Shown piece after piece: positions 18,733 to 34,880 of a stretch of 64,000 nucleotides of DNA (the stretch's first letter is position 1; the number at the start of each line of letters is the position of its first letter). This stretch comes from Gilvimarinus sp. 2_MG-2023 (GTDB taxonomy: Bacteria; Pseudomonadota; Gammaproteobacteria; Pseudomonadales; Cellvibrionaceae). Both the position numbers and the translations under genes were made by a program. The stretch is taken from assembly GCF_030547685.1 (NCBI RefSeq), contig NZ_JAUOQM010000053.1, forward strand, positions 89,223 to 153,222. The letters run 5' to 3'. Under the pieces are notes generated by a model that was given only the letters and a program-made list of their open reading frames with translations, was not told the DNA's origin and made no database searches.

Positions 18733-19878
18733 ATGGAAGCTTACATCTTCAATTTTCACGACGTCATCGTTTTTATGACGATCATTGAGTGCATCATGCT
18801 GGCACTTTTTCAGTGGGCTTTGCCGACCGCACGTAAAACGGCCAGTGGAGCATTAATTGTCTTCTTGCTCTCAATTGGTCTGCACAGCCTTTGTATACTT
18901 CTCTTGTGGAATGATTTGGTTCACACCCTCGACTTTTTTGACTTAAACGTCGTACCTTATTTACTTATGTTGGCTGCATTTAGTAAAGGGCAAGCACTCT
19001 ATTTTTATGTTGCATCGCTAACAGAACATGACTTTAAGCTAAGAAAGAACCAACTTGTACATTTATTACCCTTGGCCCTTAGCTGGCTTTTATTGTTAGT
19101 ACTACAAATTGATAGCGATGCACTGCGCTGGCGGGCGGACAATCAATCACAACTGTCCATTACCGTGGTGAATTTTATTTGGCATAGCTCAAAAGTCATT
19201 CCGTTTATATATGGATTAGCCGCTGTACATTTGGCGCGCCGGTACTACCTGTCACTCAAAGATCAATACTCTTCGTTCTCAAGTGGCGAGCCCAGCTGGC
19301 TGATAGTGCTAACGGTTGGATTTTTGCTGCATTGGATTTTTTCACTGGTCGTTCATGTTGGCGCCCAATTCAGCACCATCAGCCTTTCCAATTATTTAGG
19401 TATCTCTGAAAATTATGTCGTTTTCGTGCTGATCAATGGCCTTTTTGCCTACAGCGCCGCCTATGCTCACAGAGTATTAACGACAAAACCTGTGACCCTT
19501 AAAACGGTTCCTGAAGATCAGCCGAATGATGCTGCCATTGTGAAAGTCAAAAACGGCATGGAGGTTGACAAATTATTCTTACAACAAAACCTGAACATTG
19601 AAGAATTTTCGAATCAAATAAATCTACCCGCCAGGGATGTGTCCGGCGTAATCAATAAACATTTTGGCACCAATTTTTTTGAATTTATGAATTCTTACCG
19701 GGTAGAAGAAGCCAAAAGGCTATTGTTAGACCCTGCCCACAAGCATCTAACGATTCTCGATATTTTGTTACAGGCAGGGTTTAACAGTAAATCAGCGTTT
19801 CATCGCTTCTTTAAGCGACTGGTGGGGATATCCCCCTCTGAGTACAGAAAACAATCGGCAGGGAAAGGGGAGCGATAA
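18733..19878 (+). CDS. Membrane-embedded AraC-family transcriptional regulator
   Basis: This 381-residue protein has about seven N-terminal transmembrane segments (10-250) and a C-terminal AraC-type double HTH (about 285-376; the second HTH is DILLQAGFNSKSAFHRFFKRLVGISPSEYR). Such membrane AraC regulators often sit beside polysaccharide utilisation genes and TonB-dependent receptors. It is convergent with the GH16 lipoprotein gene. Inference: it senses an oligosaccharide or envelope signal and controls the glucan locus that follows. Confidence 0.85.
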   Translation: MEAYIFNFHDVIVFMTIIECIMLALFQWALPTARKTASGALIVFLLSIGLHSLCILLLWNDLVHTLDFFDLNVVPYLLMLAAFSKGQALYFYVASLTEHDFKLRKNQLVHLLPLALSWLLLLVLQIDSDALRWRADNQSQLSITVVNFIWHSSKVIPFIYGLAAVHLARRYYLSLKDQYSSFSSGEPSWLIVLTVGFLLHWIFSLVVHVGAQFSTISLSNYLGISENYVVFVLINGLFAYSAAYAHRVLTTKPVTLKTVPEDQPNDAAIVKVKNGMEVDKLFLQQNLNIEEFSNQINLPARDVSGVINKHFGTNFFEFMNSYRVEEAKRLLLDPAHKHLTILDILLQAGFNSKSAFHRFFKRLVGISPSEYRKQSAGKGER

Positions 19879-19912: not shown

Positions 19913-22051
19913 TTACGGTGCGATATAACGAATGTTATCCAACTGCAGATGGACATTCGCTTGCGCTTCCCAAGTAGGGGAAATCACCAATGGAGTATTT
20001 ACCCGGCTTAAATCCAGGCCGCCATTAACCAAGTCATTGATTGGCACCTCCACCGTCTGCCAGCCATCGGAGCCGACCATGCCTAACTCTATATCGCCGG
20101 AACTGCAGGGGTGCACACAGTCAACCCGGATAGCCACTTGACTTGCCAAACCGTAGTCCAATACCTGAACATCAAACACCAGACGACCGCCGGAAAATAC
20201 GCTCATATCCTTTGGGCTGGTCGACTGAATAAAGGCTATACCACTGCCTCCCGCATTGCCAAATTGAACATCAATAACTTGCCCCCGGGCATTATCACTC
20301 GCCTCCACGATTGACGTTGAAACATGGTTCGCGGCAGTCTGATAAATACCAATACCAAAATCCCAGTTCACATTAATGGCATCGTCAAATACGGTATGCG
20401 GCGTTTCTATGGTACTGGATTGGCCGGCCAATATGGCCTGAGGCGCGCAGTCACCCAAACATTCATAAGCAATATTGTTTATTTTAATTTTAGCCGTCCC
20501 AGCGGCCAACTCTAAAACAAAGGGATTCACCACTGAATTCAGGTCGACCTGACCCGGCTCAATATTATTCGCCTGCAGCTCGCTCAAGCGCACAACCACG
20601 CGCGTCCACTCACCCACACTGGGTTCAATTTCTTTTTGGCTCACAGCGGGCCAACCACTATCCACCTTCACTAAAAATTGCGCGTCACCGGACTTTTCTT
20701 CAACCAACAAATCGAAGGCAATCTGCCCGGTTTGGGCAAACTGAGACAGATTCACACCGCTGGCCAACCCATCTTCTTCCGAACTCTGATCTGCACTGAG
20801 AAAAATATTCGCCGCACCGGAAAACTCTGCGCTCCACACCGTATCACTGCCGGTATTAAAGGCCGGGTCAACCACCAGGTTACCAGCATTCGACTCATAG
20901 TAGCCTGGTGTTAGCGAACGCAGGGTGTCACTGCTGGGCGTCTCTAGGGTCAGTGTTGTGTCCCCATCCCTATAGAGCGAAAAACTCTTTATATCGGGGG
21001 CGGGAAAACCCGGCAGTCTTTCTATTTGGCTATCCAGCAAATCACTACAACCAGCGCCTGTTTCTGGATCGAGCGCACACTGATAAACACGCACATAATC
21101 GACCAGAAGTGTCTGCGGAAAGGACGTCGTATCATCCGGATCCTGCGGCCAATTACCGCCCACTGCCAAGTTAACAATTAAGTGGAAGTTTTGATCGAAA
21201 GGCGCCGCGCCTTCACCCAACTGATAGCCTGCACCAGAGTCGCTGGTGTAGTAGGTGTACCAGCCGTCGGATGTTTGTGTGGCATAATGAACGTCATCCA
21301 CGAACCAGTGGATTTCCCCCTCCGACCACTCAACTGCATAAGTATGAAACTCTTGCCACACATCTGCAGGTGGCACATAAGAGGTGCCGGAGTATTGATT
21401 ACCCGGCCACGCGCTGCCGTAGTGCAAGGTGCCGTGAACTTCGTTGCCGCCAGCGGCATTGGTATTCACGGCCTCCAATACATCAATTTCGCCACTGCGG
21501 GGCCAACCACCATAAACATTGTCGGTGGGCAGCATCCAAAAAGCCGGCCAAATGCCCTGCCCTTGCGGTAGCTTCGCGCGGATTTCCATTCGGCCGTACT
21601 TAAAATCGCCTTTGCCTTTGGTGCGCAGACGCGCCGAGGTGTAGTCGCGCTGAACGGAGGTATCATTGGGATCGTAGCTAGGCGAATCATCCCATTCACC
21701 CGGGCCCTGATAACTTTCTTCGCGCGCAACGATATGCAAGAAACCGTTGTCGAGATAGGCGTTCTCCTCGCGCGGCGTGTAGCACTGCAACTCATTGTTG
21801 CCACCGCCGGTGCAGTTAACCTCAAAGCTCCATTTGTTGGTGTCAATGCTCTCGCCTTCGAACTCATCACTCCACACTAGTGCCCAATTTTCATTCAAGG
21901 ACTGTGAACTGGCAGAGGACGTGCTGCTAATGCTAGATGAGCTGATCGAGGAGCTCGATGGGGAGCCGACATCAGTCGTAGAACTACCTCCGCCACAAGC
22001 GGCCAAACCGGTTAGTATCAGTGGCAGCATTGCAAGTGACAATTTTCTCAT
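19913..22051 (-). CDS. GH16 beta-glucanase (laminarinase-type) lipoprotein with two C-terminal binding modules
   Basis: This 712-residue protein starts at 22051, where a lipoprotein signal ends in LAAC (C19); the frame is open 20 codons further upstream. A Ser-rich linker (about 23-50) leads to a GH16 domain (about 58-325) with the catalytic motif GEIDVLEAV (nucleophile E188, acid/base E193). GH16 enzymes with this motif cleave beta-1,3 or beta-1,3-1,4 glucans. Two related beta-sandwich modules follow (about 335-525 and 540-712). Both contain the pattern S-x-F...G.W..V.V..L...N.PFV/LVI...I..D.I., similar to the galactose-binding-like module of ExoP glucan exohydrolases. It is probably surface-anchored. 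Confidence 0.9.
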   Translation of the reverse strand: MRKLSLAMLPLILTGLAACGGGSSTTDVGSPSSSSISSSSISSTSSASSQSLNENWALVWSDEFEGESIDTNKWSFEVNCTGGGNNELQCYTPREENAYLDNGFLHIVAREESYQGPGEWDDSPSYDPNDTSVQRDYTSARLRTKGKGDFKYGRMEIRAKLPQGQGIWPAFWMLPTDNVYGGWPRSGEIDVLEAVNTNAAGGNEVHGTLHYGSAWPGNQYSGTSYVPPADVWQEFHTYAVEWSEGEIHWFVDDVHYATQTSDGWYTYYTSDSGAGYQLGEGAAPFDQNFHLIVNLAVGGNWPQDPDDTTSFPQTLLVDYVRVYQCALDPETGAGCSDLLDSQIERLPGFPAPDIKSFSLYRDGDTTLTLETPSSDTLRSLTPGYYESNAGNLVVDPAFNTGSDTVWSAEFSGAANIFLSADQSSEEDGLASGVNLSQFAQTGQIAFDLLVEEKSGDAQFLVKVDSGWPAVSQKEIEPSVGEWTRVVVRLSELQANNIEPGQVDLNSVVNPFVLELAAGTAKIKINNIAYECLGDCAPQAILAGQSSTIETPHTVFDDAINVNWDFGIGIYQTAANHVSTSIVEASDNARGQVIDVQFGNAGGSGIAFIQSTSPKDMSVFSGGRLVFDVQVLDYGLASQVAIRVDCVHPCSSGDIELGMVGSDGWQTVEVPINDLVNGGLDLSRVNTPLVISPTWEAQANVHLQLDNIRYIAP

Positions 22052-22217
22052 GGATTTTGCCTCTTTATTGTATGGGCTAGTCTGAGCACGGGAGTTATCT
22101 TTGAGCTCCATTGGAGCTTTACATCCTCAGAACAAGCGGGGGAATAACATGATAAAAACGCTCTGAAGGCTTCTGATAAATTTGATACAAGTATGGCTTT
22201 TATTATGTAGGGCGGGT

Positions 22218-22601: not shown

Positions 22602-22626
22602 CAAAAACGGCACCCGAAGGTGCCGC
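22602..22626 (-). terminator. Intrinsic terminator of the GH16-cytochrome gene
   Basis: CGGCACC / GGTGCCG with a TTCG tetraloop is followed by five T on the minus strand, 22 bases after the stop codon. Confidence 0.9.
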
Positions 22627-22648
22627 TAATTCCAATCAAGCTTATACT

Positions 22649-25600
22649 CTACAGTGATTCAATAAAACTCAGTAAATTACTGCGCGCATTGTTGGACAGT
22701 CCATCGTAGGCTTGCTTTGCCGCGAGCGCTTCACCACCGTGCCAACGAATCGCCTCGTCGATAGTGCGAGCACGGCCGTCGTGCAAAAAGTTTGCGTCGG
22801 GAACACACGTCTCATAACCGTCTAGGCCGAAACCGTCCCAGCCGATGCCACCCTCTACGCCACCGGTTACACAGGCGGATAGCCCCACACCCCAGAGCGG
22901 AGCTGTGCGCCATTCACTACCGGTCGCCTCGCCTTCACCTAGGTTATCGGCCAATCCCGGGCCCATGTCATGCAACAACATATCGGTGTAGGGGCGAATG
23001 GTTTGGTCGCGTAACTCGGCCAGTGGATGGTACTCACTGGTTTGGTGAGTGGGGGTATGACAATCCGCGCAACCGATTTGATCAAAGGTTTGTTCGCCAT
23101 CGAGTACGGCTGGTTCATTGTAGTTGCGCTGCGGACGCACCCCTAACAGTGAGACATACTTAACCAAATTGTCCAAATGTTCATCAGCAAGCTCACTGCC
23201 TGCTGGACCACAGTCGTTTTGCGCCGATCCACAATCGGGGTTGGGTAACAGGCTTGTCATTACTCCCATATCGGTATTAAACGCCGCGGCCACCTGATGC
23301 TTAACACTAACCGCTGCCGCCTTATAGCCGAATCGGCCCAGTCGCGTAACGCCAGTTTCAGGATCCGCGATACGGTTAGCACGCCCGGAAATGCCATCGC
23401 CGTCGGCATCGTTGGGGTCTTCCAGTGCCAGGATAGCCGACTCTGGAATCGCCTCTAACAAACCCAGACCATTTAAGTTGGGCGCCAAACGAGCTGAAAA
23501 AGTCTCTGGTGTGCCATTGCTAAAGGTGTAGTTGGGTGAACGCAAACCGCCCGATTCTGTCCAAGACTGAATGGCTACATCACCTTCACCACCCAGCCCA
23601 CGTGGCTGTAAAACACGGCCGCGATCTGCTTCAGGGTTGCCATTGGCATCGCCAATTTTAAACACCCAACGATCCAAAGATTCACCGATCTCGGCCACCG
23701 AAGCACGGCCATTGCGCACGTGACAGTCGGAACAGCGCTCGTTAATATAATTGGGGCCGGCTTTGCCAACGGCGACACTGTTTACACCATTTTCCGCACT
23801 TTCATCGTGTACACCATCAACAAACGACGAGTGGTGGATATGACGCCCCAACACAAATGGCTGACCATTGTCATAGCCTAAGTTAGTCGCCATCTGCTGA
23901 AAGTGACCATCGGGCTCTGCCGTCATTTGCACGTGCAAGGTGGTATCACCACCCATACGTGCCCGCTCAGGCACAGGGATAGTGTCACGTTGTAAATAAT
24001 TGCCGCTGACAAACTCTACCTTATCGGTAACATCCCAAGGCACTATGCCCTCACCCACAATATACAGATACGTCGTGCCGTAATAATTGGCACGTCCGCG
24101 CGGCACACCCACATCGAGGAACTGGCTGATTTCAAACTCGAGTTTATCCCCCATTTGGATGGGCCGACCTTCACGGCAGTTCCAGTTTTCCTCTTTCCAG
24201 TAGTTCACATTATCACTGGTATTCATTACGCCATTGCCGCAATACTGAGCGAGGGTATGCAGCCCCTCATACCACCAGCGATTTTCAGCCTCGGTATCGG
24301 ACAATTTAAATTCAGTGCGAACATTCATCCGTATGCTGTCGCCACCCTTGGCCACGTAATCGATAATTTCTATCGCTGCGGTACGATCTTCCCAGTAAAA
24401 CGACAGGTAATGATCGTAGGCCTGAAAGTGGTTTTCTTTGGCGTGACGATCGCGAGCCCGATCGGAAAAACGAGTGATCAGGGCATCACCTCGATCAAAA
24501 CTGATCACCGGCTCCAACGCAGTATTATTATCAAACAAAGGCGTTATTTGCGCACCGGGCGGCAAGGTAACGGGGCAACCGTTGGCGTCGACACTGACGC
24601 CCGCCGCAGTGTTGGGGCATTGGTCATTGGCATCAACAACGCCATCGTTATCACTATCGCCCGGTGTTGGATCTGGATCAGGGCCCGGATCTGGATTTGA
24701 ACCGGCTCCCACAGTGTAGCTTTCCCACGGTGAGTCGACAGCTCCGCCCAAGTTGGCATCCCAATAGGTAAAACTGTAATCCACTACATCGCCACTACTT
24801 AAACCGCTCGCGTTATAGGTATTGCGACCGCTGCCTTGCACCATAGCGACATTAATTTGACCGCCACCGTTAACACGGTAGTGCAAATCCGCCCAGTCAG
24901 CCATGTTGAGATAAAATTCTAGGCTGCCCTCCGTCGGCTCGTTGACACCGGAATTACCATCAGTGTTCGTTATAGCGCAGCCATCGGCGTCGACCTGGGC
25001 TCCCGTAGCGGTAGCCGGGCACTGATCGATATTATCGGTAACGCCATCGCCGTCACTATCGACTACCACTTTTTCCAGATTAATCCAATTTAAGTTTAAG
25101 CCCGCCGCATCGATATTAATACGTACATTGGCATTGCCTGCGGCCACCTCTATATTACCCAGCACCAGACTTTGCCAGTTCTGCCAGCCACCGGTACTGC
25201 TCACCGAACTGCTGGATGTGTAGGCGCCATTGATGCCAACACTAAGCGCTCCACCATCATTTAACGCCGCTACGCGCGCCGTCACCTGATAGGTACCCGC
25301 CGCCAAATCTGTACTGTATTCAAGCCACTCACCGCTCTCGGTCCAACCTACGTTGTAGCCGCCATCGGTGTCAGTGGCCACCTCGATATCAACATCATCA
25401 TTGCGATATTCGCTGCCGTTATTGCCGGCGCTACTGTCTAAAAAGTTGATGTAGTCTTCGGCTTGAATTTTCACGCTGTCGGCACTGCAACCGGTGGCGT
25501 TAACACTGGCACCTGCCTGCGTATTAGGGCAGGCATCGTCGCCATCCAACACACCATCATTGTCGGTGTCGGTCGCAGATACTTGGGCGCAGCCCGAACT

Positions 25601-27163
25601 ATCAACCGCAATGCCGGCCGGTGTTCCGGGGCAAGCATCGTTCTGGTTGGCAACGCCATCAGCGTCGTCATCGGCGGCACTGCCACCGCCTTGCCAAATA
25701 ATGTCATCAATGGCTATCGAAAAGTTGGCACTGGGCATAGTGTCGCCGCTGAGCACCACAAAGGGATAAGCGAGAGATTGCAACGCCACCAATGCGCCGC
25801 GTAAATCGCTCACCGGTACAGTTGCCGTACCCCACTCGCCGTTACGCACTAAACCATACTGATTCACACCAGCGGGGAAGTCGATATAGTGCTCATTGGT
25901 ATAGGTGTCTGTCACACCAATTCTAAAGGACACATCAGCGGGCGCCTTAATACGAAACGTTACTGTGCCGTCGGCAAAGTTACTCATATTCAAAGGCTGA
26001 CGCGATTGAATGCCACCGCCAAACCACTGACCAGGCGCAGTGTAATCCCAACTAATCACATTATCGCCTTCATCTGCCGGCTCAGTGCCGCCGGTAAGGG
26101 AGCCAGTACTCCAAATATATATATCGGAACTGACACCCGGCTCAAGCTTGTTGTCGGTTGCGGTGTTATCGGTAAACACACCAAAAGTGCCCACTTCAGC
26201 CTGGGTGGTATCGCCCAGCGTCACCTCTCCCATGCCGTCGTATTCGTAGACACGTACATAGTCGACGTACATTTTTGCTGGCAGTGGTGCGGTTACCTCG
26301 CTATTTTGCTGGGCATCGGTGAAGTTGCCACCTACAGCCATATTCATCAGCAAATAGAAAGGAGCCCGGAATTCGTCGGATTCATCGGTAATGGGCACTG
26401 GGTTATCGTACATATCGTATTCAACACCGTTATCAACCACCGCAAAACGCAACGATTGATCGGTCCAGTAAAGCCGATACGTGATAAAACGATCGTTCAT
26501 CGGGGTTTGCGAGACATAGGCGTTATCTGTTTGCCAGGCCGACATGGCCGCACAAGTCGGATTGCCTTCTACGCAGGCATCGTCGGAGTAAAAAATGGCA
26601 TTGCCACCGACAAAGCTATTTGGGGTCGCACCGGCGTGGAAATGGTCGATCTCGGTTTGGCGATGGCCCATTTCCATCATGTCGATTTCGCCCTTGGCGG
26701 GCCAGCTGGCGGTGGTGGTGCCCAGCAGCCAAAAAGCGGGCCACAGGCCTGTCTCTAAATTGGGCACCCGAATGCGAGTCTCGATCATACCGTACTGAAT
26801 GGCGACCGCATTCTGGCTGTCGAGCTTGCCCGAGGTAAAGGCACTGCCCTCGACGTTCTCGGCGCGCGCTTCAAATACCAAAGCAGAATTGCCGGGCTCA
26901 CCCGGAACCGCTTCAATAGAAACGTTATCAGCCTGATAATATTCCAGTTCTTGATTGCCCCAGCCGCACAAATTGGGGCCTAATTGACAGCCGTTACCTT
27001 CAACGACGTTCCAGTGATTGGTATTGATATTGTCAAAATTGTCTTCCCACAACAATTGACCAACTTGTTGCGCGTGGGATGTACTCACAGCCAAAGCCGT
27101 GGTGAGTGCGGCTGCGCCGACCATTAAAGGGCGGCAAACCGAATATCGGTTGCGTTTATTCAT
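22649..27163 (-). CDS. GH16 glucanase fused to CBMs and a di-heme oxidoreductase domain
   Basis: This 1504-residue secreted protein has a signal peptide (1-31) and a GH16 domain (about 35-308) with active site GEIDMMEMG (E159, E164). A module like those of the neighbouring GH16 spans about 330-492. TSP3-type calcium repeats lie at 497-525, 532-560, 701-730 and 836-863. A CBM6 (about 563-700) opens IQAEDYINF, and a CBM56-like module (about 745-820) contains LHYRVNGGGQINVAMV. A region at about 870-1060 is unrecognised. A DHOR/DUF1111 di-heme domain (about 1100-1504) has two heme sites, CSDCH (1144) and CADCH (1365). DHOR proteins are periplasmic c-type cytochromes. Fusion to a beta-glucanase suggests redox chemistry at the glucan surface. 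The frame is intact throughout. Confidence 0.9.
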   Translation of the reverse strand: MNKRNRYSVCRPLMVGAAALTTALAVSTSHAQQVGQLLWEDNFDNINTNHWNVVEGNGCQLGPNLCGWGNQELEYYQADNVSIEAVPGEPGNSALVFEARAENVEGSAFTSGKLDSQNAVAIQYGMIETRIRVPNLETGLWPAFWLLGTTTASWPAKGEIDMMEMGHRQTEIDHFHAGATPNSFVGGNAIFYSDDACVEGNPTCAAMSAWQTDNAYVSQTPMNDRFITYRLYWTDQSLRFAVVDNGVEYDMYDNPVPITDESDEFRAPFYLLMNMAVGGNFTDAQQNSEVTAPLPAKMYVDYVRVYEYDGMGEVTLGDTTQAEVGTFGVFTDNTATDNKLEPGVSSDIYIWSTGSLTGGTEPADEGDNVISWDYTAPGQWFGGGIQSRQPLNMSNFADGTVTFRIKAPADVSFRIGVTDTYTNEHYIDFPAGVNQYGLVRNGEWGTATVPVSDLRGALVALQSLAYPFVVLSGDTMPSANFSIAIDDIIWQGGGSAADDDADGVANQNDACPGTPAGIAVDSSGCAQVSATDTDNDGVLDGDDACPNTQAGASVNATGCSADSVKIQAEDYINFLDSSAGNNGSEYRNDDVDIEVATDTDGGYNVGWTESGEWLEYSTDLAAGTYQVTARVAALNDGGALSVGINGAYTSSSSVSSTGGWQNWQSLVLGNIEVAAGNANVRINIDAAGLNLNWINLEKVVVDSDGDGVTDNIDQCPATATGAQVDADGCAITNTDGNSGVNEPTEGSLEFYLNMADWADLHYRVNGGGQINVAMVQGSGRNTYNASGLSSGDVVDYSFTYWDANLGGAVDSPWESYTVGAGSNPDPGPDPDPTPGDSDNDGVVDANDQCPNTAAGVSVDANGCPVTLPPGAQITPLFDNNTALEPVISFDRGDALITRFSDRARDRHAKENHFQAYDHYLSFYWEDRTAAIEIIDYVAKGGDSIRMNVRTEFKLSDTEAENRWWYEGLHTLAQYCGNGVMNTSDNVNYWKEENWNCREGRPIQMGDKLEFEISQFLDVGVPRGRANYYGTTYLYIVGEGIVPWDVTDKVEFVSGNYLQRDTIPVPERARMGGDTTLHVQMTAEPDGHFQQMATNLGYDNGQPFVLGRHIHHSSFVDGVHDESAENGVNSVAVGKAGPNYINERCSDCHVRNGRASVAEIGESLDRWVFKIGDANGNPEADRGRVLQPRGLGGEGDVAIQSWTESGGLRSPNYTFSNGTPETFSARLAPNLNGLGLLEAIPESAILALEDPNDADGDGISGRANRIADPETGVTRLGRFGYKAAAVSVKHQVAAAFNTDMGVMTSLLPNPDCGSAQNDCGPAGSELADEHLDNLVKYVSLLGVRPQRNYNEPAVLDGEQTFDQIGCADCHTPTHQTSEYHPLAELRDQTIRPYTDMLLHDMGPGLADNLGEGEATGSEWRTAPLWGVGLSACVTGGVEGGIGWDGFGLDGYETCVPDANFLHDGRARTIDEAIRWHGGEALAAKQAYDGLSNNARSNLLSFIESL

Positions 27164-27717: not shown

Positions 27718-28413
27718 TCAAGAGAAATCCACAAAAATATTTGCGGTTAGCCTACCGGTCAACGGACAATGGTTAATATCTGTCGCGGTATTTATAAGCC
27801 CTGAATGAAGAAGGTTACCCGGATACACCATCAATCGGTTAACCCTGTATTCAACTGAGGCGGTCATTTCAAATCGGTCATTCGAGCCGGCAATATATTC
27901 GTGGGCAGGCTCGGACTGTTTAAGCTCACCTCTTACCGACTCAATAAAGACAGATCTGTTGTCAGGCTTTACCCGTTCCACTCCACTCGCTTTGTGCCGA
28001 AAAAATCCTGTGCCGCCAAAGTCGCCATCTCCCAGATAATGCATAACCGCGAAATAGCGGGAAACATCAGAATCAAAATGAGGTAAGCGTTGCAAGGTCG
28101 ACAACTCCGACGGCCTTTTAGTCACTAGAGAAAAGAATTGTTGATAACAGCGCCCCTGAGCGGTATCAGGCAGTGAGTAGACCGACTGTATTAAAGGTTG
28201 CAGAACACTTAATACCGCACTGCCATAACTGGAAGGAAGAACCGCTCTGCACCCCGGATACCCGCCCTGTGCCGGAGTAAACCGCGCATAGTCCTGTGCC
28301 ACAACCCGAAGGCCATGAAGCGAATCGCCAAAGTCATCAATAACAATAACAGGGGTCTTGCTCTGGCCAACCAGTAGAATATTTTCTACCAGCGGCTGTT
28401 TTATTTTTATCAT
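27718..28413 (-). CDS. DUF6445 protein, 2OG-Fe(II) oxygenase-like
   Basis: This 231-residue protein resembles the DUF6445 family. It keeps an iron-triad-like set, H112-x-D114 (LPHFDSD) and H203 (LLHSG), followed by R221 (GRLTANIF), which would bind 2-oxoglutarate in a prolyl-hydroxylase-like fold. It is the last gene of the halogenase cluster, 10 bases after the halogenase stop. Family members commonly travel with tryptophan-halogenase-like, SapC and cupin genes beside TonB-dependent receptors. The substrate is unknown. Confidence 0.72.
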   Translation of the reverse strand: MIKIKQPLVENILLVGQSKTPVIVIDDFGDSLHGLRVVAQDYARFTPAQGGYPGCRAVLPSSYGSAVLSVLQPLIQSVYSLPDTAQGRCYQQFFSLVTKRPSELSTLQRLPHFDSDVSRYFAVMHYLGDGDFGGTGFFRHKASGVERVKPDNRSVFIESVRGELKQSEPAHEYIAGSNDRFEMTASVEYRVNRLMVYPGNLLHSGLINTATDINHCPLTGRLTANIFVDFS

Positions 28414-28423
28414 ATCCTATCAA

Positions 28424-29923
28424 TCATTGCGCTGAATTGTGCGCGTTTTTCGACTGGCAGTAGTGATCGATAAACTGCTGATGCGTGGGCAACTTGGAAA
28501 CCATAGTCGACTTTGACTGCCTGATACTAGCCAAAAAATCATTGAGTTCTTGGTCACTCATTACATCGGCAAAGCCGTGATACGATTTTGGCTCTACCCC
28601 CTGCCCCATCATTACCTGAATCCAAGATTCCTCACCAAACAGTTCATTGTTAACCTTAAATACTTTGGCCGAATCTGAAAACAAATCAATTTTTTGTTGC
28701 AGCGTGTCGGGAATTTGCATGTTCTTACAATAGCGCCAAAACTCAGTATCAGTTCGATTAGTCACTTTATAATGCAAAATAATAAAATCTCGAATTCTTT
28801 CCACATCGATTTTTGTCTGCCGGTTAAATTCGTCCACATCACTGGCATTAATGCCCATTGACGGAAATAACTGTATAAAACGTACCAGTGATTTTTGCAC
28901 AAGATGTATGCTAGTGGACTCTAAAGGCTCTAAAAAGCCACTGGCCAGCCCTAGCGCCAGACAGTTTTTATGCCAATGCTTGCGACGAGTTCCGGTGCGA
29001 AACTTTATTTTTTTAGGTTGTGTTAAAGGCTCGCCTTCTAAGTTTGCCATTAGCACTTCTTGAGCTTGCTCATCGCTCCAAAATCGACTGGAATAAACCA
29101 TGCCATTACCTACACGGCTTTGCAGTGGTATTCGCCACTGCCAACCCGCATCGTGGGCGATAGAGCGCGTATAGGGCAATGGATCCGACACCTTCGGCGT
29201 CTGCACGGCCAGCGCGCTGTCACAAGGCAACCAGTGAGACCAATCTTCAAAACCTGCATGCAGTGACTGTTCGATCAGCAACGCTCGAAAACCGGTGCAA
29301 TCAATAAAAAAATCGCCGTCAATCACTTTGCCAGACTGTAAGGTCAGCGATTGTATATTACCGCTACTTTCATCCAAATTAACTTTTTCAATTTTTCCTT
29401 CTTGACGCTTAGCACCTAGCTTCTCGCTGAATTCGCGCAAATACTTAGCGTATAGGCCAGCGTCCATATGATAGGCATAATTCATTCTGGCGTTAGGGGC
29501 AATCGCAAACTTACCTTCATAGGCCGCTAACAGCTCGGCGCAGTAATCGGCGTAAGGGTAGTCGATACCGCGCGCTTTACCAGCCAACCAGAAATGCACA
29601 AAACTGCAAGCCCAACAATCTTTACCCGCATAGCCGAACGAGTGAATATACTTGTGGCCTTTTTCGCGCCAATTTTCAAAACTGATGCCCAACTTAAACG
29701 TACCGTTAACAGTTGCCATAAATTCTCGCTCGTCAATATCGAGAATATTATGAAATGTGGTCAACGGTGGAATGGTGGCTTCACCCACGCCGACGGTGGG
29801 GATATCGTCTGATTCAACCAAGACGACCTCATTTTTTTTGCCCAGCGTTTTCGCCATAACAGCGGCGGCCATCCAACCTGCGGTGCCGCCTCCGGCAATC
29901 ACAACTTTTTTGATGGGGTTCAT
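28424..29923 (-). CDS. Tryptophan-halogenase family flavoprotein
   Basis: This 499-residue protein is of the PrnA/RebH-like halogenase family. It has an N-terminal FAD motif (GGGTAGW, 11-17), the conserved lysine region GTFKLGI (K77), and the halogenase signature WxWxIP as WQWRIP (261-266), with LEPLESTSIHL further on. Key residues for FADH2-dependent HOCl chemistry are therefore present. No flavin reductase gene is nearby. In TonB-receptor loci these enzymes are abundant, but their substrate is not established. It is the fourth gene of the receptor cluster. Confidence 0.9.
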   Translation of the reverse strand: MNPIKKVVIAGGGTAGWMAAAVMAKTLGKKNEVVLVESDDIPTVGVGEATIPPLTTFHNILDIDEREFMATVNGTFKLGISFENWREKGHKYIHSFGYAGKDCWACSFVHFWLAGKARGIDYPYADYCAELLAAYEGKFAIAPNARMNYAYHMDAGLYAKYLREFSEKLGAKRQEGKIEKVNLDESSGNIQSLTLQSGKVIDGDFFIDCTGFRALLIEQSLHAGFEDWSHWLPCDSALAVQTPKVSDPLPYTRSIAHDAGWQWRIPLQSRVGNGMVYSSRFWSDEQAQEVLMANLEGEPLTQPKKIKFRTGTRRKHWHKNCLALGLASGFLEPLESTSIHLVQKSLVRFIQLFPSMGINASDVDEFNRQTKIDVERIRDFIILHYKVTNRTDTEFWRYCKNMQIPDTLQQKIDLFSDSAKVFKVNNELFGEESWIQVMMGQGVEPKSYHGFADVMSDQELNDFLASIRQSKSTMVSKLPTHQQFIDHYCQSKNAHNSAQ

Positions 29924-29949
29924 GGGTCACCTCTCAATAATTTTAAAAT

Positions 29950-30939
29950 TTATTGTTTTAATTTTTGTGCGAAATTCATCCACGCTAAGCGCGCTGCTGG
30001 TTCATTATCGGGATCTAACATGCCTTGCAGCGCCTTGGGTATATTGTCAGTGGCCATAGCATTGTCAGAAAACACATAGTGCTCAAACATGGCTTTCCAA
30101 CTGGCTTTTTCACGCGTATTCATACCACGCAAAGCCAGTATGGCGTGCTCCAATGCCAGATCGGGCACCCCCATATAATCGGCCGTTTGCTTCCACCAAT
30201 AGTTAACCAGCATATTGATTGGCCCGCTGCTTTTAACTCTGTGCCACCACAACGGGGGAATATAAAGCGCATCACCCGGTTGCAATCGCGCCACCACACT
30301 GTGCTCAAGTGCGGTGGAGAATTTGGGAAATTTTTCGAGATCGGGCGCGTCAAAATTAACCATACTAATTGCCCGCCCCGAAGGCGTTCGATCCACTGGC
30401 CCTATGTATAGGTTAGTGACCTGCTCGGGAGGAAACAGTGTGAACTCCCGCTTACCAGAAACACAGCACGCAATGTTCATAGGGCTGTCAAAGTGGGCGG
30501 CAATGTCGGTTTCACCACCAATCCAAAAATTGGCCAAAGGCTGTGCGCCGGACATGACAATATCGTTTTTCTCGCGAAAACCGGGCAGCCATTTATCTAT
30601 CCGAGTGGATCCAATATAACGCCCCTCAACGGCCTCTTGCAGGCTGTTCAGAACCTCATTTAAATGGGCACTGGCCCGATCGAATGTAAAGCCACTAAAA
30701 TCGTCTAAATAGCCTATTCTGCCACCCGTCACACCGGCTTTGATTTGGTAAAAGGTAACGGGCAAATCGGACGAATATTGTTTTAAATATTGGATGAGAC
30801 TGGCATCGGAAACCGTCGCCTCAGCCACGGCGGGCCAATGACTTACAAACCCTTTTAACACGACCGGGACGCTTAGGCCCGGCAGTTCCTCGGGCACTGT
30901 GCCCGGTTCTGTGTAGGGATGGTTTGCAACGGTGCTCAT
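29950..30939 (-). CDS. Cupin-8/JmjC-like oxygenase
   Basis: This 329-residue cupin_8 protein resembles factor-inhibiting-HIF and JmjC enzymes. It has the metal triad H149-x-D151 (AAHFDSP) and H233 (PPLWWHRV), and a Lys after the first strand (GKREFTLFP) suited to binding 2-oxoglutarate. It probably hydroxylates a protein or small-molecule partner. It lies between sapC and the halogenase gene, 16 bases from sapC and 26 bases from the halogenase start. Confidence 0.85.
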   Translation of the reverse strand: MSTVANHPYTEPGTVPEELPGLSVPVVLKGFVSHWPAVAEATVSDASLIQYLKQYSSDLPVTFYQIKAGVTGGRIGYLDDFSGFTFDRASAHLNEVLNSLQEAVEGRYIGSTRIDKWLPGFREKNDIVMSGAQPLANFWIGGETDIAAHFDSPMNIACCVSGKREFTLFPPEQVTNLYIGPVDRTPSGRAISMVNFDAPDLEKFPKFSTALEHSVVARLQPGDALYIPPLWWHRVKSSGPINMLVNYWWKQTADYMGVPDLALEHAILALRGMNTREKASWKAMFEHYVFSDNAMATDNIPKALQGMLDPDNEPAARLAWMNFAQKLKQ

Positions 30940-30955
30940 GGCGGTTTTTTAACCT

Positions 30956-31687
30956 TTAGCCTACAGCAGCCGTTTTTAGCGCGACCTTGCGCTCCATTAA
31001 GCTGCGCACTTTGTTAACCGAGGCGATGGCCATATAAATTGGCTCTAAATAGTAGCGCCGATGCAATTCAATTAACTTCTCATCGGGCAATTCGCGCAGA
31101 CTTTTTTCGTTGATGGTGTAAAATCCCAGCAGCTGACCTTTGGTGCCATCATCCAAAGTAATATCCATGGTCACCTGCTCCAGCAAATTAAGTTCTTGCA
31201 GAGCTTTAAGAAATATTTCGTTATCCTGATGCCATACATGCAGTGTTTCCAGCATGCCTGAAATTCTGTCTAAATAGGGTGTAGCGGTACCCAGCTCATC
31301 AAATAATCGCTGTCCCACTTTTTCATTCACTTTGGGATGATCAAGATCAACGTTGATAAAACGATTGGGACCATCGCTTTGTTCATCTTTTTTCCTTCCG
31401 ATGGAGAAAGGGCCGCGCTGAACCATTAAAGGAATGTATCCCGCGCCCCACCGTCCGTTATCGAGAAATATATTATCACCCTGCTCAAAGCCTAACAGCG
31501 TTACGGCCATAAACTGACCGGTTTGGCTGTCTTTTTGAAACAAGATGGGATAGTGCGCTTGTGCGTTGCGAAACTCGGCGGCAAAGGTTTGCGCCCACAT
31601 GACGCCATCGCCAAGTTCAGTTGAATATTGATTGCTAACGTGTAAGTTGCGGTGTTCATCACTGTTGAGCATTACGGTTTTTGTCAC
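30956..31687 (-). CDS. SapC family protein
   Basis: This 243-residue protein shows the SapC pattern, with VTLLGFEQGDNIFLDNGRWGAGYIP early and LLGFYTINEKSLRELPDEKL near the C-terminus. SapC was named in Campylobacter S-layer loci, but in gammaproteobacteria it is a standard companion of TonB-dependent receptors in carbohydrate loci, and its role is not known. It has no signal peptide, so it is probably cytoplasmic. It follows the receptor after a terminator-like hairpin pair. Confidence 0.85.
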   Translation of the reverse strand: MTKTVMLNSDEHRNLHVSNQYSTELGDGVMWAQTFAAEFRNAQAHYPILFQKDSQTGQFMAVTLLGFEQGDNIFLDNGRWGAGYIPLMVQRGPFSIGRKKDEQSDGPNRFINVDLDHPKVNEKVGQRLFDELGTATPYLDRISGMLETLHVWHQDNEIFLKALQELNLLEQVTMDITLDDGTKGQLLGFYTINEKSLRELPDEKLIELHRRYYLEPIYMAIASVNKVRSLMERKVALKTAAVG

Positions 31688-31753
31688 ATGACCACCTATT
31701 ATTTTTTATTGCTATTGGTACGGTTGTTACCGCTTCGTTAATAAGCCAGAGAG

Positions 31754-31781
31754 CAAAAAGCCGGCCCAATAACTGCCGGCC
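31754..31781 (-). terminator. Intrinsic terminator after the TonB receptor gene
   Basis: GCCGGC / GCCGGC separated by a 9-base loop is followed by five T on the minus strand. It lies between the receptor stop (31845) and sapC, so sapC and downstream genes depend on read-through or their own promoter. Confidence 0.7.
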
Positions 31782-31786
31782 TCTGG

Positions 31787-31821
31787 TACCAGCACTGGCC
31801 AAGACCTCACCAGTGCTGGTA
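31787..31821 (-). promoter_or_regulatory. Perfect 12-bp hairpin between TonB receptor and sapC
   Basis: TACCAGCACTGG pairs perfectly with CCAGTGCTGGTA over an 11-base loop, immediately before the terminator. It has no T-run of its own, so it may stabilise the 3' end of the receptor mRNA or modulate termination. Confidence 0.55.
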
Positions 31822-31844
31822 CTACACTCTACCCTAACTTTAAC

Positions 31845-34800
31845 TTAGAAAGTATAGCGGGCCCCTAAGTTATAGCGAGCGTAACCTTGATAGTAACCCA
31901 ACACTTGCTCGTAAGAGCGACCATAGTTGCGGCCACTTTCTTCGGTGACATTTATGCCTTCGACAAACACCGAAAGATTCTCGGTCACATCGTAACTGAC
32001 ATTAATATCGACCTGGCTGTACTCATCGACATAAATCGGGTTGTTGCCCGTACCCGATGCGCCCGAGGCCAAGAAAGCATCGCGCCAGTTATAGGCAATA
32101 CGCGCCTGGAAGCCATGTTTTTCATAGAAGGCAACCAAGTTGGCGGTATCACTCACCCCCGGCAATGAGAACTGAGGATCACGCAGCAGCATGTCATCAA
32201 AGTTGGTGTCAACATCCACTAAGGTGTAGTTCGCCATAAAACCAAAGCCACTTTCACCGAAGGTGTGCTGAACCGCAAACTCCAAGCCATCCACGTTTAC
32301 AACCTGATCCGAATTCGCCACCTCGGTGACTTCGACGGGCGTATTAGGATCTTCGCCTGGGATGCCGACGATCACTATATTGCCGCTGCCATCGATATAG
32401 GCTGTGTCTGGATCGGCATAGTTATCGTAAATATACTGGCGAATATCGACCACCGCATTGGGCGACAAGCCCGAATCAACGGCAGCCTGGAAGCGCTCAC
32501 CCATGGCTGGGTGCGGTGTATTGTTCAGCGGGCCATCCTCAAAGACAACCTGCGTGCCAATAAAGTTTTCCACCTCTTTTTCAAAGTAGCCGACCGATAC
32601 ATAACTTGCGTCGGCAAAATACCATTCCGCCGAGATGTCGAAGTTATCCGCCTTATAGGGCTCTAAACCTGGAGAGCCTCTATCGGCTGTAGCACCGTTA
32701 ATACGAAGACCTTCAGAGTATGAGGTGCCGCCGCGCAGATCCAGCCAATCGGGGCGCGCGATACTTTGCCCATACGAGGCGCGCAACACCACATCATCTA
32801 CCACTTCTAAGCTAGCATCGATCGAGGGAAGCACAAAGTCGTATTCGCCACTGTCTGTCACTGCAACCGCATCCCCCACCGGACGCATCGTAAACTCGTT
32901 GGCGGATACCCAGGAAACCGGACCATACGCCTGCGCCGACGCAGGGGTTTCTACCTCGGTAGACTCATAACGCACACCGGCCAACAAGTTAAATGGCATA
33001 GCGGCTATATTCGTCTGCCAAGCAACCGACACATACGCACTGTCGGAACTTTCGCTAATGTCATTAAATTGGTCAGGAGCTTGCGCACAGTACCAAGTAG
33101 AACCATCGGGACAGTCAGCAGGCCCTTCGCCATCATCAAGGTTAGCGGCAGCAAAGTTGCGTACATCCTCAAAACTAAAGGAGTAGTACTGATCCAGCGG
33201 TATGGCATTGCTACCACCCAGAAATGCAATCTGCTCTTGTGTGGTTTCACCATAGGAGCCATCAAAACGATCCAAAATGGTTTCAGGAGTAAACCATTGC
33301 TCGTCTAGCATGCCCGGCTCACCTAAGCCGCCCCAGGCTTCACGCTGTACGTTACTGAAGGAAGAGCGGTAATCGCTCTCAGTACGCGCCACACCGAATT
33401 GTAATTTTAACTCATCTGTAAAGGCGTACTCACCGTCGAACTGAATTTGATCAATGTCTTGCTTCATACGGCTGTTACGGAAGTAACTGCCCGATACTTG
33501 CATATCTTGCACGCGCAGGTCACTGCCACCGGCACCGTCTAAAACATCCAAAATCAACACGGGCATGTCACCGGCGACATTAATGGTAGTGCGGTCACGC
33601 ACATAGGCGGATACCGCCACGCCGACACTATTGCCGTATTCGTTATCGGGCGAGGCCTCTGCGCTTGAGCTGTGCGCATCTAACGATAGCTTCAGCTTAT
33701 CGCTGACCTGCCACTCCAGATTTAAACCAACGGAGTTATTTTCATATTTTGCCGCCTGACGCCCCACACCCATCGGCAGGTCACCTGCGGTCATATCCTC
33801 TGAGTACAAAATTGGGGTTTGCACGGCTGGCGAGTCATAATCGGTAAAAATCGTGCTTTGTCCGCCGAAGTTAAACCAGCCGCCCACATCGTTGTAGGTA
33901 GAGGCAATGGTGTTTTCGCTGTAGGTGTAATCGAGCGTAGCGGTCAGTGCATCGGTAGGCGCAAACTGTAAGGTCAGCTGGCCGTTGGTGCGCTCGCGCT
34001 CAAATTCGGTAAATACATAACCCATTTGCTGCGGGGTTGAATAAATATCGTCCGCCGAGGGCTGGTTTTGGTGATTGCCATTAAAATCGATACCACCCCA
34101 TTCCCAATCGACCGTTTCCTGACCGCCCCAATCCTGCACAACAGACCCTTGGAATGAGCGCCAGCCGGTACCCACTTGAGCAGCAGCGGAGCCACCTTTA
34201 CGTTCTTGATAACTACCGGTTACCGCAACACCTATTTTGCCATCGGCAAAGGTATTGCTGTAAATACCGGAGATCTCAGGGGTTAATGAGGAGTCCTGCG
34301 ACGACTCATCGTAAACACCTTTAACACCAAAGGATGCGACCGCATCCGACTCCAGCGGTTTGGGCGTGACAATATTGATGGTGGCGCCCATACCGCCCGG
34401 AGGCGCATCGGCGCGAGTGGTTTTATACACCTCGACCGCGGACACCCCTTCGGAGGCGATGTTGGCAAAATCAAACGAACGCGACCCCGAGGCCACAGTT
34501 GACTCTAAGGTCGCACCAGGCATTTGGCGGCCATTGAGTAGAACCGTATTAAAGTCTGGCCCTAAACCGCGCACCGTAACTTTGGAACCTTCCCCATCAC
34601 GGCGATTAATCGATACGCCGGAGATACGCTGCAAAGACTCAGCAAGGTTTGTATCTGGGAACTTACCAATATCTTCGGCGGAGATGGCATCGACCACACC
34701 GTTGGCATCGCGCTTTAAGTCCATCGAACGCTGTAGGCTGGCACGAATGCCAGTCACAATGACTTCTTCTAGAAGGCTCTCTTCTTCTTGGGCATAGGAT

Positions 34801-34880
34801 GCGTTGCCAAATCCGGCGACTGCTGTCGATGCAATCGCGGTGGCAATAAGCTTGCGCTTAAATGTCTGCTTAAAATTCAT
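31845..34880 (-). CDS. TonB-dependent outer-membrane receptor
   Basis: This 1011-residue receptor has a signal peptide (about 1-30), a plug domain (about 45-165: GKFPDTNLAESLQRISGVSI, VTVRGLGPDFNTVLLNGR) and a 22-strand-type barrel ending in the aromatic terminus NLGARYTF. It belongs to the TIGR01782-type group that imports saccharides or other bulky nutrients in Xanthomonadales, Caulobacter and Cellvibrionales. With two GH16 enzymes nearby, a beta-glucan oligosaccharide is the likely cargo (inference). It heads the sapC-cupin-halogenase-DUF6445 cluster. Confidence 0.95.
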   Translation of the reverse strand: MNFKQTFKRKLIATAIASTAVAGFGNASYAQEEESLLEEVIVTGIRASLQRSMDLKRDANGVVDAISAEDIGKFPDTNLAESLQRISGVSINRRDGEGSKVTVRGLGPDFNTVLLNGRQMPGATLESTVASGSRSFDFANIASEGVSAVEVYKTTRADAPPGGMGATINIVTPKPLESDAVASFGVKGVYDESSQDSSLTPEISGIYSNTFADGKIGVAVTGSYQERKGGSAAAQVGTGWRSFQGSVVQDWGGQETVDWEWGGIDFNGNHQNQPSADDIYSTPQQMGYVFTEFERERTNGQLTLQFAPTDALTATLDYTYSENTIASTYNDVGGWFNFGGQSTIFTDYDSPAVQTPILYSEDMTAGDLPMGVGRQAAKYENNSVGLNLEWQVSDKLKLSLDAHSSSAEASPDNEYGNSVGVAVSAYVRDRTTINVAGDMPVLILDVLDGAGGSDLRVQDMQVSGSYFRNSRMKQDIDQIQFDGEYAFTDELKLQFGVARTESDYRSSFSNVQREAWGGLGEPGMLDEQWFTPETILDRFDGSYGETTQEQIAFLGGSNAIPLDQYYSFSFEDVRNFAAANLDDGEGPADCPDGSTWYCAQAPDQFNDISESSDSAYVSVAWQTNIAAMPFNLLAGVRYESTEVETPASAQAYGPVSWVSANEFTMRPVGDAVAVTDSGEYDFVLPSIDASLEVVDDVVLRASYGQSIARPDWLDLRGGTSYSEGLRINGATADRGSPGLEPYKADNFDISAEWYFADASYVSVGYFEKEVENFIGTQVVFEDGPLNNTPHPAMGERFQAAVDSGLSPNAVVDIRQYIYDNYADPDTAYIDGSGNIVIVGIPGEDPNTPVEVTEVANSDQVVNVDGLEFAVQHTFGESGFGFMANYTLVDVDTNFDDMLLRDPQFSLPGVSDTANLVAFYEKHGFQARIAYNWRDAFLASGASGTGNNPIYVDEYSQVDINVSYDVTENLSVFVEGINVTEESGRNYGRSYEQVLGYYQGYARYNLGARYTF

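Follow-up and report, generated by a model that had tools for sequence, protein, structure and literature searches.

The stretch of DNA analysed here (the window) is 64,000 nucleotides of contig NZ_JAUOQM010000053.1 from Gilvimarinus sp. 2_MG-2023, and at 22649-27163 on its minus strand lies one intact open reading frame of 1504 codons, encoding a putative β-1,3-glucanase that ends in a di-heme redox module. The frame runs from ATG to stop with zero internal stops, and the plus strand in the same register is stop-rich. An initial annotation had reported this single frame without a strand, and had assigned to it a GH16 domain with the catalytic motif EIDMME, two carbohydrate-binding modules joined by TSP3 calcium repeats, and a C-terminal DHOR domain with two CxxCH heme sites. 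All of these are borne out, and two further domains, at residues 312-494 and 873-1045, were absent from that account. The protein is laid out as follows:

22649-27163, minus strand: whole open reading frame, 1504 amino acids (translation)
27071-27163, minus strand: putative Sec signal peptide, residues 1-31, cleavage after ...SHA (judged by eye on the sequence)
26243-27067, minus strand: GH16 laminarinase-type catalytic domain, residues 33-307 (Pfam and best PDB match 4crq)
26672-26689, minus strand: GH16 catalytic motif EIDMME, residues 159-164 (motif scan)
25682-26230, minus strand: CBM-like domain of unnamed family, residues 312-494 (zero Pfam matches there; survey of module frames)
25457-25678, minus strand: TSP3 calcium-type linker 1, residues 496-569 (Pfam, motif scan)
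25070-25405, minus strand: CBM6, residues 587-698 (Pfam)
24974-25066, minus strand: TSP3 linker 2, residues 700-730 (Pfam, motif scan)
24731-24949, minus strand: CBM56, residues 739-811 (Pfam; PDB 7quz and 5t7a by sequence)
24566-24664, minus strand: TSP3 linker 3, residues 834-866 (Pfam, motif scan)
24029-24547, minus strand: extra domain at the N-terminal end of the redox module, residues 873-1045, predicted β-sandwich with CBM56-like fold (predicted models, identities)
22652-24028, minus strand: di-heme DHOR domain, predicted MauG/cytochrome c peroxidase (CCP) fold, residues 1046-1504 (Pfam, predicted model)
23801-23848, minus strand: class motif GRHIHHSSFVDGVHDE (GRxxxHx5GxHxE), residues 1106-1121 (alignment of modules)
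23720-23734, minus strand: heme site 1, CSDCH, residues 1144-1148 (motif scan)
23057-23071, minus strand: heme site 2, CADCH, residues 1365-1369 (motif scan)

The GH16 domain exceeds the Pfam cut-off for PF00722 (32.6 bits against 22), its best PDB match is the endo-1,3-β-glucanase 4crq (E 4.7e-28), and most of the PDB sequences closest to residues 36-308 are endo-1,3-β-glucanases and laminarinases. The pattern EID[MI][MF]E is present in all 17 GH16-module proteins compared. The binding modules and linkers are equally clear of their cut-offs: CBM6 at 65.0 bits against 28.9 (CBM_35_2 matches the same stretch, 67.8 against 23), CBM56 over residues 739-811 at 81.5 against 27, and TSP3 at 30.7 against 25. 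When the C-terminus was compared with the PF06537 profile, a check that the initial annotation had proposed, it proved to be DHOR at 217.8 bits against 22, in two stretches of which the best joins residues 1224-1504 to profile positions 214-499 of 499; the two CxxCH sites begin at residues 1144 and 1365. Judged by these matches and by its N-terminus, the protein is probably secreted and should bind and cut β-1,3-glucan. The Pfam-negative domain at 312-494 adjoins GH16 in 17 of the 18 GH16-module frames surveyed and is a candidate for an unnamed CBM.

An assembly or frameshift artefact was ruled out by four genus-mates (G043, G044, G045, G047), which carry collinear, intact single frames of 1715-1741 amino acids with the same terminal module at 84-89% identity. 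Nor was any stop or frameshift found between residues 860 and 1100, where the initial annotation had allowed for one; that stretch holds the conserved extra domain. It is not a linker, since the identity of the extra domain equals or exceeds that of every other domain in five of five pairwise comparisons. Against the four genus-mates, identities are 89-92% for the extra domain, 86-91% for GH16, 82-89% for DHOR and 73-81% for CBM6 and CBM56; against the more distant L037, a probable Lam16A (see below), they are 76% for the extra domain and DHOR, 66% for GH16 and 52% for CBM6 and CBM56. Conservation was judged by identities alone, synonymous sites being mostly saturated for estimates of dN/dS (nonsynonymous over synonymous substitution rates).

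Residues 873-1504, 632 amino acids, behave as one unit, which we refer to as the module. Its predicted model has a mean predicted local distance difference test (pLDDT) score of 90.0 and a predicted template modelling (pTM) score of 0.92. When this model was compared with solved structures by VIA-align, the DHOR part matched hydrazine synthase gamma 5c2v (Z 16.2, 219 aligned residues, 2.9 Å), which we take to have the MauG/CCP fold, the di-heme CCP 2c1v (Z 15.5, 235 aligned, 3.4 Å) and MauG 3sle (Z 15.5, 249 aligned, 3.6 Å); these and other matches within the superfamily fall at Z 15-16 over 219-250 residues, and the MauG-like 6e1c is also among the closest folds. Residues 1046-1504 are accordingly modelled here, for the first time, as a MauG/CCP fold. 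By sequence the relationship is faint: the single module sequence matched nothing among solved structures at E<=1, and a search with the module alignment picked up brief segments of cytochrome c (9l08 at E 7e-11, from three repeats; 5z25 at 0.012), with weak matches to hydrazine synthase gamma (0.045) and a CCP (0.21). The extra domain at residues 873-1045 is predicted, also for the first time, to be a β-sandwich with a fold closest to CBM56. In the full model, module residues 23-164 superpose on CBM56 5t7a with 93 of 93 residues aligned (Z 10.0, 2.5 Å). When the domain was folded alone (pLDDT 81.9) 5t7a remained the top match (Z 9.0), and the next matches, at Z 6-8, were a second CBM56, a DUF4426 protein, copper-binding CrdA, isoamylase, a GH64 glucanase, GNBP3 and CBM31. 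A conserved stretch at module positions 29-55 (R30, R34, H35, E38, Y51, R55) seems to pack on the heme domain, because pLDDT in blocks 31-50 is higher in the full module (77-79) than in the extra domain alone (53-59).

The module is patchily distributed. The module finds a match in 106 of 144 family genomes, and in 62 of these the match is strong (E<=1e-100; hereafter module-rich). At the level of the order, module residues 1-294 used as a query match 35 of 390 genomes, including the source genome and 12 others of the family, and the extra domain alone matches two of 274 genomes sampled throughout the class, the source genome being one of the two. The module nevertheless occurs across several phyla: among the best 80 named loci, full-length copies are found in Alteromonadaceae, Colwelliaceae, Pseudoalteromonadaceae, Teredinibacter, Archangium, Corallococcus, Roseibacillus, Rhodopirellula and a Fibrobacteres bin. 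In the set of frames inspected for its position, the module is always C-terminal. We gathered 146 frames: 84 with a full module (including two pairs of identical copies), nine CBM32-linked DHORs that align from module position 126-128, 41 ordinary DHORs, and 12 partial, broken or intermediate frames, which were excluded from the counts of partners and motifs and of which six carry the class motif described below.

A recognised sugar-related domain accompanies 65 of the 84 full modules (CBM56 in 43, F5/8C in 28, CBM6 in 26, GH16 in 18), so that the GH-DHOR fusions that the initial annotation had suggested seeking in other genomes do exist. CBM56 occurs with the full module in Gammaproteobacteria and in Myxococcota (Archangium, Corallococcus), and in a Phycisphaerae genome (L151) it occurs, at 41.3 bits against 27, with a more distant relative of the module; modules without a recognised sugar domain are found in Verrucomicrobiota, Planctomycetota and Fibrobacterota. 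By genome, CBM56 is present in 56 of the 62 module-rich genomes versus seven of the 82 others, an association due in part to both often sharing one protein. In a 90-row tree, made by a quick method with support from the SH-like approximate likelihood ratio test (SH-aLRT) only, GH16 must have been gained or lost six times or more on the starred branches, and the window protein falls in a GH16-only set of six rows with support 99. Scanning 94 of the 178 listed neighbour proteins at 48 module loci found GH16 to be the commonest family (8), with ExoP_C in 7, AraC-type regulators in 6 and GH3 in 3. A shipworm-symbiont genome (G138, Teredinibacter sp. ISS155 by the identity of L075 and L141) yielded seven module frames, L073-L079, two of which (L076, L077) bear GH16. 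In 17 frames (L040, L080 and L123, for example), the window protein not among them, a pair of secreted PF03640 Lipoprotein_15 repeats lies directly upstream of the module.

What distinguishes this module from other DHORs? Ordinary DHOR/DUF1111 proteins (PF06537, about 470 amino acids) share a di-heme core that is 36-43% identical and aligns from module position 177-264 to 632, and the heme motifs and the segments HDMG and HDGRA are common to nearly all modules and ordinary DHORs in the alignment. All 84 full modules retain both CxxCH motifs. Unlike the modules, the 41 ordinary DHORs lack the extra domain, and none has a CBM or the class motif; they were picked by length (420-560 amino acids), so the absence of a CBM is partly a matter of definition, whereas that of the motif is not. 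Directly before heme 1, six positions (R235, H239, G245, H247, E249 and N253 in module numbering) are 98-100% conserved in the modules and 100% conserved in the nine CBM32-linked proteins; ordinary DHORs have other residues there. The motif drawn from them, GRxxxHx5GxHxE, is found in 82 of 84 full modules, nine of nine CBM32-linked DHORs and none of the 41 ordinary DHORs. A stricter version with a fixed distance to the asparagine recovered 52 of 84 full modules and none of the nine CBM32-linked proteins, and the asparagine was dropped from the final motif because its spacing varies. As far as the alignment goes, GRxxxHx5GxHxE marks a polysaccharide-linked branch of the DHORs, newly recognised here, and its pattern of presence suggests an altered site close to heme 1 and not a plain relay.

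Proteins of this architecture have been seen before, and the initial annotation's premise that hydrolases and c-type cytochromes are normally separate is not supported in this group, where the fusion recurs. Lam16A (Sde_1393) of Saccharophagus degradans 2-40 was listed in 2008 as GH16/CBM6/CBM6/TSP3x4/COG3488, 1,707 amino acids, with the COG3488 domain termed thiol-oxidoreductase like (Table 3 of PMC2386152). The order GH16, CBM6, TSP3, DHOR is that of the window protein, which differs in having one CBM6 instead of two and 1504 residues; module identity is 75-76%. L037 (genome G122), with 1707 amino acids and the Lam16A architecture, is very probably Lam16A itself, the identity being short of proven because its computed mass is 183.2 kDa and the printed one 163.3 kDa. 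Table 6 of the same paper places Cbm32A (1028 amino acids, 111.9 kDa) in the supernatant of xylan cultures by mass spectrometry (PMC2386152). Read from a GTG/TTG-type start (a Val codon), L089 has the same length and mass and was equated with Cbm32A on that basis; its module is 36% identical to the one in the window.

A second relative was described in 2022 from Gilvimarinus xylanilyticus. Xyn65 (GH26-CBM31-CBM6-Big-DHOR, 176.6 kDa) was the most abundant secreted 1,3-xylanase, with 82.3% of the secreted 1,3-xylanase spectra, and the recombinant enzyme (E. coli, pET22b), described in the passages covered without reference to heme maturation, was active on 1,3-xylan; its authors state that DHOR domains had not previously been found in GHs (PMC9638140). 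Like the window protein, Xyn65 is a secreted hydrolase of a β-1,3-linked polymer with a C-terminal DHOR; unlike it, it carries GH26 and CBM31, directed at β-1,3-xylan. Xyn65 was represented in our comparison by frames from genus-mates, L211 (G048), L212 (G044) and L213 (G045), of 1672-1673 amino acids and about 178.5 kDa including the signal peptide, which have a shorter DHOR, in which 113 residues separate the two hemes and the class motif is missing. L212, the one tested, matches the GH26 β-1,3-xylanase 2ddx (E 2.3e-130) and CBM31 2cov, a make-up that resembles Xyn65; CBM31 and GH26 were named in L211-L214 by PDB sequence matches. Of the frames fetched later, L214 has the class motif, and the three closely related GH26-DHOR frames and one CBM31-DHOR do not. 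Two further DHOR proteins of the genus match CBM31 weakly (E 8e-6 and 2e-5). Since DHORs of the genus occur with a β-1,3-xylan-type CBM31 either with or without a GH26 β-1,3-xylanase, DHORs recur with binders of β-1,3-linked polymers. Judged by frame length, GH26 together with the module was absent among the matches listed for the 144 family genomes; the later GH26-DHOR frames lie outside those matches.

Cbp2D and Cbp2E of Cellvibrio japonicus and TERTU_2913 and TERTU_3803 of Teredinibacter turnerae are likewise polysaccharide-linked cytochrome proteins, most with CBMs (PMC12542752, PMC8981238, PMC10916295), but as published they have X183 and X132 domains with one CxxCH, unlike the two-heme MauG/CCP-fold DHOR. 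A 2025 paper puts forward the hypothesis that Cbp2D and Cbp2E pair as a heterodimer and cleave cellulose directly, through a novel mechanism (PMC12542752). A literature search, with subscription journals largely outside its coverage, found no study of the present module class. As far as these searches show, the window protein belongs to a known but apparently unstudied kind, its GH16-DHOR architecture having been published in 2008.

What might a di-heme module do at the end of a glucanase? The reading that we put first, with less than even confidence, is that the window protein is a secreted multimodular β-1,3-glucanase of the Lam16A type whose module is a catalytic, glucan-directed di-heme enzyme. 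GH16 would cut the glucan while CBM6 and CBM56 hold it; the module, a di-heme MauG/CCP-fold enzyme of the polysaccharide-linked DHOR branch, would be a catalyst itself, and its own CBM56-like domain may help to keep it at the glucan. Heme 1, with the His/Glu/Arg cluster of the class beside it, may use hydrogen peroxide or O2, heme 2 may serve as electron relay, and the target of oxidation may be the polysaccharide or something bound to it. The module is most likely an oxidase or peroxidase directed at polysaccharide, of putative activity and substrate. This is in keeping with the suggestion of the initial annotation that the protein brings redox activity to the glucan that it hydrolyses. The source genome has one match to the cytochrome c maturation protein CcmH, consistent with heme loading, and both Cbm32A and Xyn65 were detected outside the cell by mass spectrometry (PMC2386152, PMC9638140).

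Several observations weigh against a catalytic, glucan-directed module. Nineteen of the 84 full modules lack a recognised sugar domain. The motif was fitted on the surveyed sequences themselves and is placed near heme 1 by sequence position instead of coordinates; two of the 84 full modules lack it, as do the Xyn65-type DHORs and one CBM31-DHOR of the same genus. Assignment of the extra domain as a CBM by sequence was rejected (hhalign probability 1.3 to CBM56, zero Pfam matches), Foldseek by itself gave nothing at E<=1e-3, and Z values of 9-10 between β-sandwiches may reflect a common arrangement. Within the genus DHOR is somewhat less conserved (82-89%) than GH16 (86-91%). Hydrolysis is probably independent of the hemes, because recombinant Xyn65 was active after plain expression in E. 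coli. The literature covered holds no measured activity for any such module. Module-rich genomes are also enriched in lytic polysaccharide monooxygenase (LPMO) genes, as set out below.

Laminarin and other β-1,3-glucans are among the largest carbon pools of the sea. If the module is catalytic, there would be an oxidative route for β-1,3-glucans besides LPMOs, and the result would bear on the purpose of bacterial CBM-linked extracellular cytochromes; the motif and the domain limits make this directly testable. That the module recurs on proteins that bind sugars is a hint of an oxidative way, so far unexplored, of handling such polymers. A bolder version, which we consider rather unlikely, is that the module represents an undescribed carbohydrate-active redox family, a di-heme MauG/CCP-fold oxidase or peroxygenase with a CBM56-like domain and the GRxxxHx5GxHxE site, that opens β-1,3-linked polymers oxidatively (glucan here, xylan in a sister branch) and plays an LPMO-like role for triple-helical β-1,3-polymers; the GH16 fusions would then oxidise and hydrolyse within one polypeptide.

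The predicted CCP/MauG fold, and the Pfam description of DHOR as a putative peroxidase, would also suit a glucan-tethered peroxidase that removes hydrogen peroxide, either as a defence against algal or host peroxide or as protection of the enzyme. We hold this to be unlikely, as the class motif and the sugar-binding modules suggest a more special task, and bacterial CCPs draw electrons from periplasmic donors, which would be hard to supply extracellularly. That MauG 3sle and MauG-like 6e1c are among the closest folds raises the prospect of MauG- or MbnH-like oxidation of protein side chains, in the protein itself or in surface partners; a shared protein partner was not seen in the top 25 of 180 families among the neighbours, and we regard this as improbable. 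Iron acquisition or extracellular electron transfer, as proposed for ordinary DUF1111, which lies beside imelysin in iron-uptake loci (PMC3143127), ranks lower again: the neighbours in the window are GH16, a TonB-dependent receptor and an AraC-type regulator, and among the 94 neighbour proteins of the 48 loci GH16 is the commonest family (8), with GH3 in 3. The activity of Xyn65 made in plain E. coli would fit a module that only binds or has a structural role, with vestigial hemes, but the retention of both CxxCH motifs in every full module and a module conservation equal or nearly equal to that of the catalytic GH16 make this the least probable of the readings.

The mechanism raised by the initial annotation, in which the module would donate electrons to an LPMO on the polysaccharide in the manner of Cbp2D, has mixed evidence; we place it below the peroxide-removing peroxidase and above side-chain oxidation, as quite unlikely. 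LPMO_10 is found in 90 of the 144 family genomes, 53 of 62 module-rich ones versus 37 of 82 others (p=7e-7), in tests that ignore kinship and lifestyle, both confounders. The difference is strong outside the two largest genera (20/22 versus 21/53, p=3.5e-5); it is 17/22 versus 15/26 in the largest genus (p=0.22) and 16/18 versus 1/3 in the second (p=0.08). The link between module and LPMO_10 therefore exists but is not strict: nine of the 62 module-rich genomes, several of them drafts and one (G098) a single contig, have no LPMO_10 match, and co-occurrence is not obligate. The source genome does have one LPMO_10 gene, on a separate contig, and its GbpA_2, CBM2 and CBM10 domains do not include the CBM56 of the window protein. 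LPMO_10 is also outside the 25 commonest of the 180 families in the 94 neighbour proteins. The Cbp2D X183 domain is capable of slow LPMO reduction, but the X183 domains of T. turnerae did not feed an LPMO (PMC10916295). With a co-occurrence that is positive overall and has nine exceptions, LPMO partnership was rejected as the leading interpretation. The initial annotation is partly supported: its facts hold, and electron supply to an LPMO is one mechanism among several, without being the one with the strongest support.

The gene encoding the glucanase-DHOR protein has the following surroundings in the window:

22606-22627, minus strand: terminator-like hairpin of 9 pairs directly 3' of the stop (hairpin scan); the region has 9 such hairpins versus a mean of 7.4 in shuffled sequence, which is no clear excess
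19913-22111, minus strand: second GH16, with an ExoP_C domain, downstream neighbour (Pfam)
18733-19878, plus strand: AraC-type regulator, beyond the second GH16 (Pfam)
27718-34880, minus strand: DUF6445, tryptophan-halogenase-like, cupin, SapC and TonB-dependent receptor genes, upstream neighbours (Pfam)

From this gene context the locus looks like a β-glucan uptake locus of the TonB type. The source genome as a whole has 11 GH16 matches; its DHOR matches are confined to this one frame, and a search of it for CCP_MauG (PF03150) gave zero matches. The tryptophan-halogenase-like gene (28424-29923), together with SapC, cupin and DUF6445 beside the TonB-dependent receptor, is odd for a sugar-uptake locus; Trp_halogenase is also found in two of the 94 scanned neighbour proteins of module loci. 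Farther away in the window, at 6263-8458 on the minus strand, lies a molybdopterin oxidoreductase gene of 731 amino acids.

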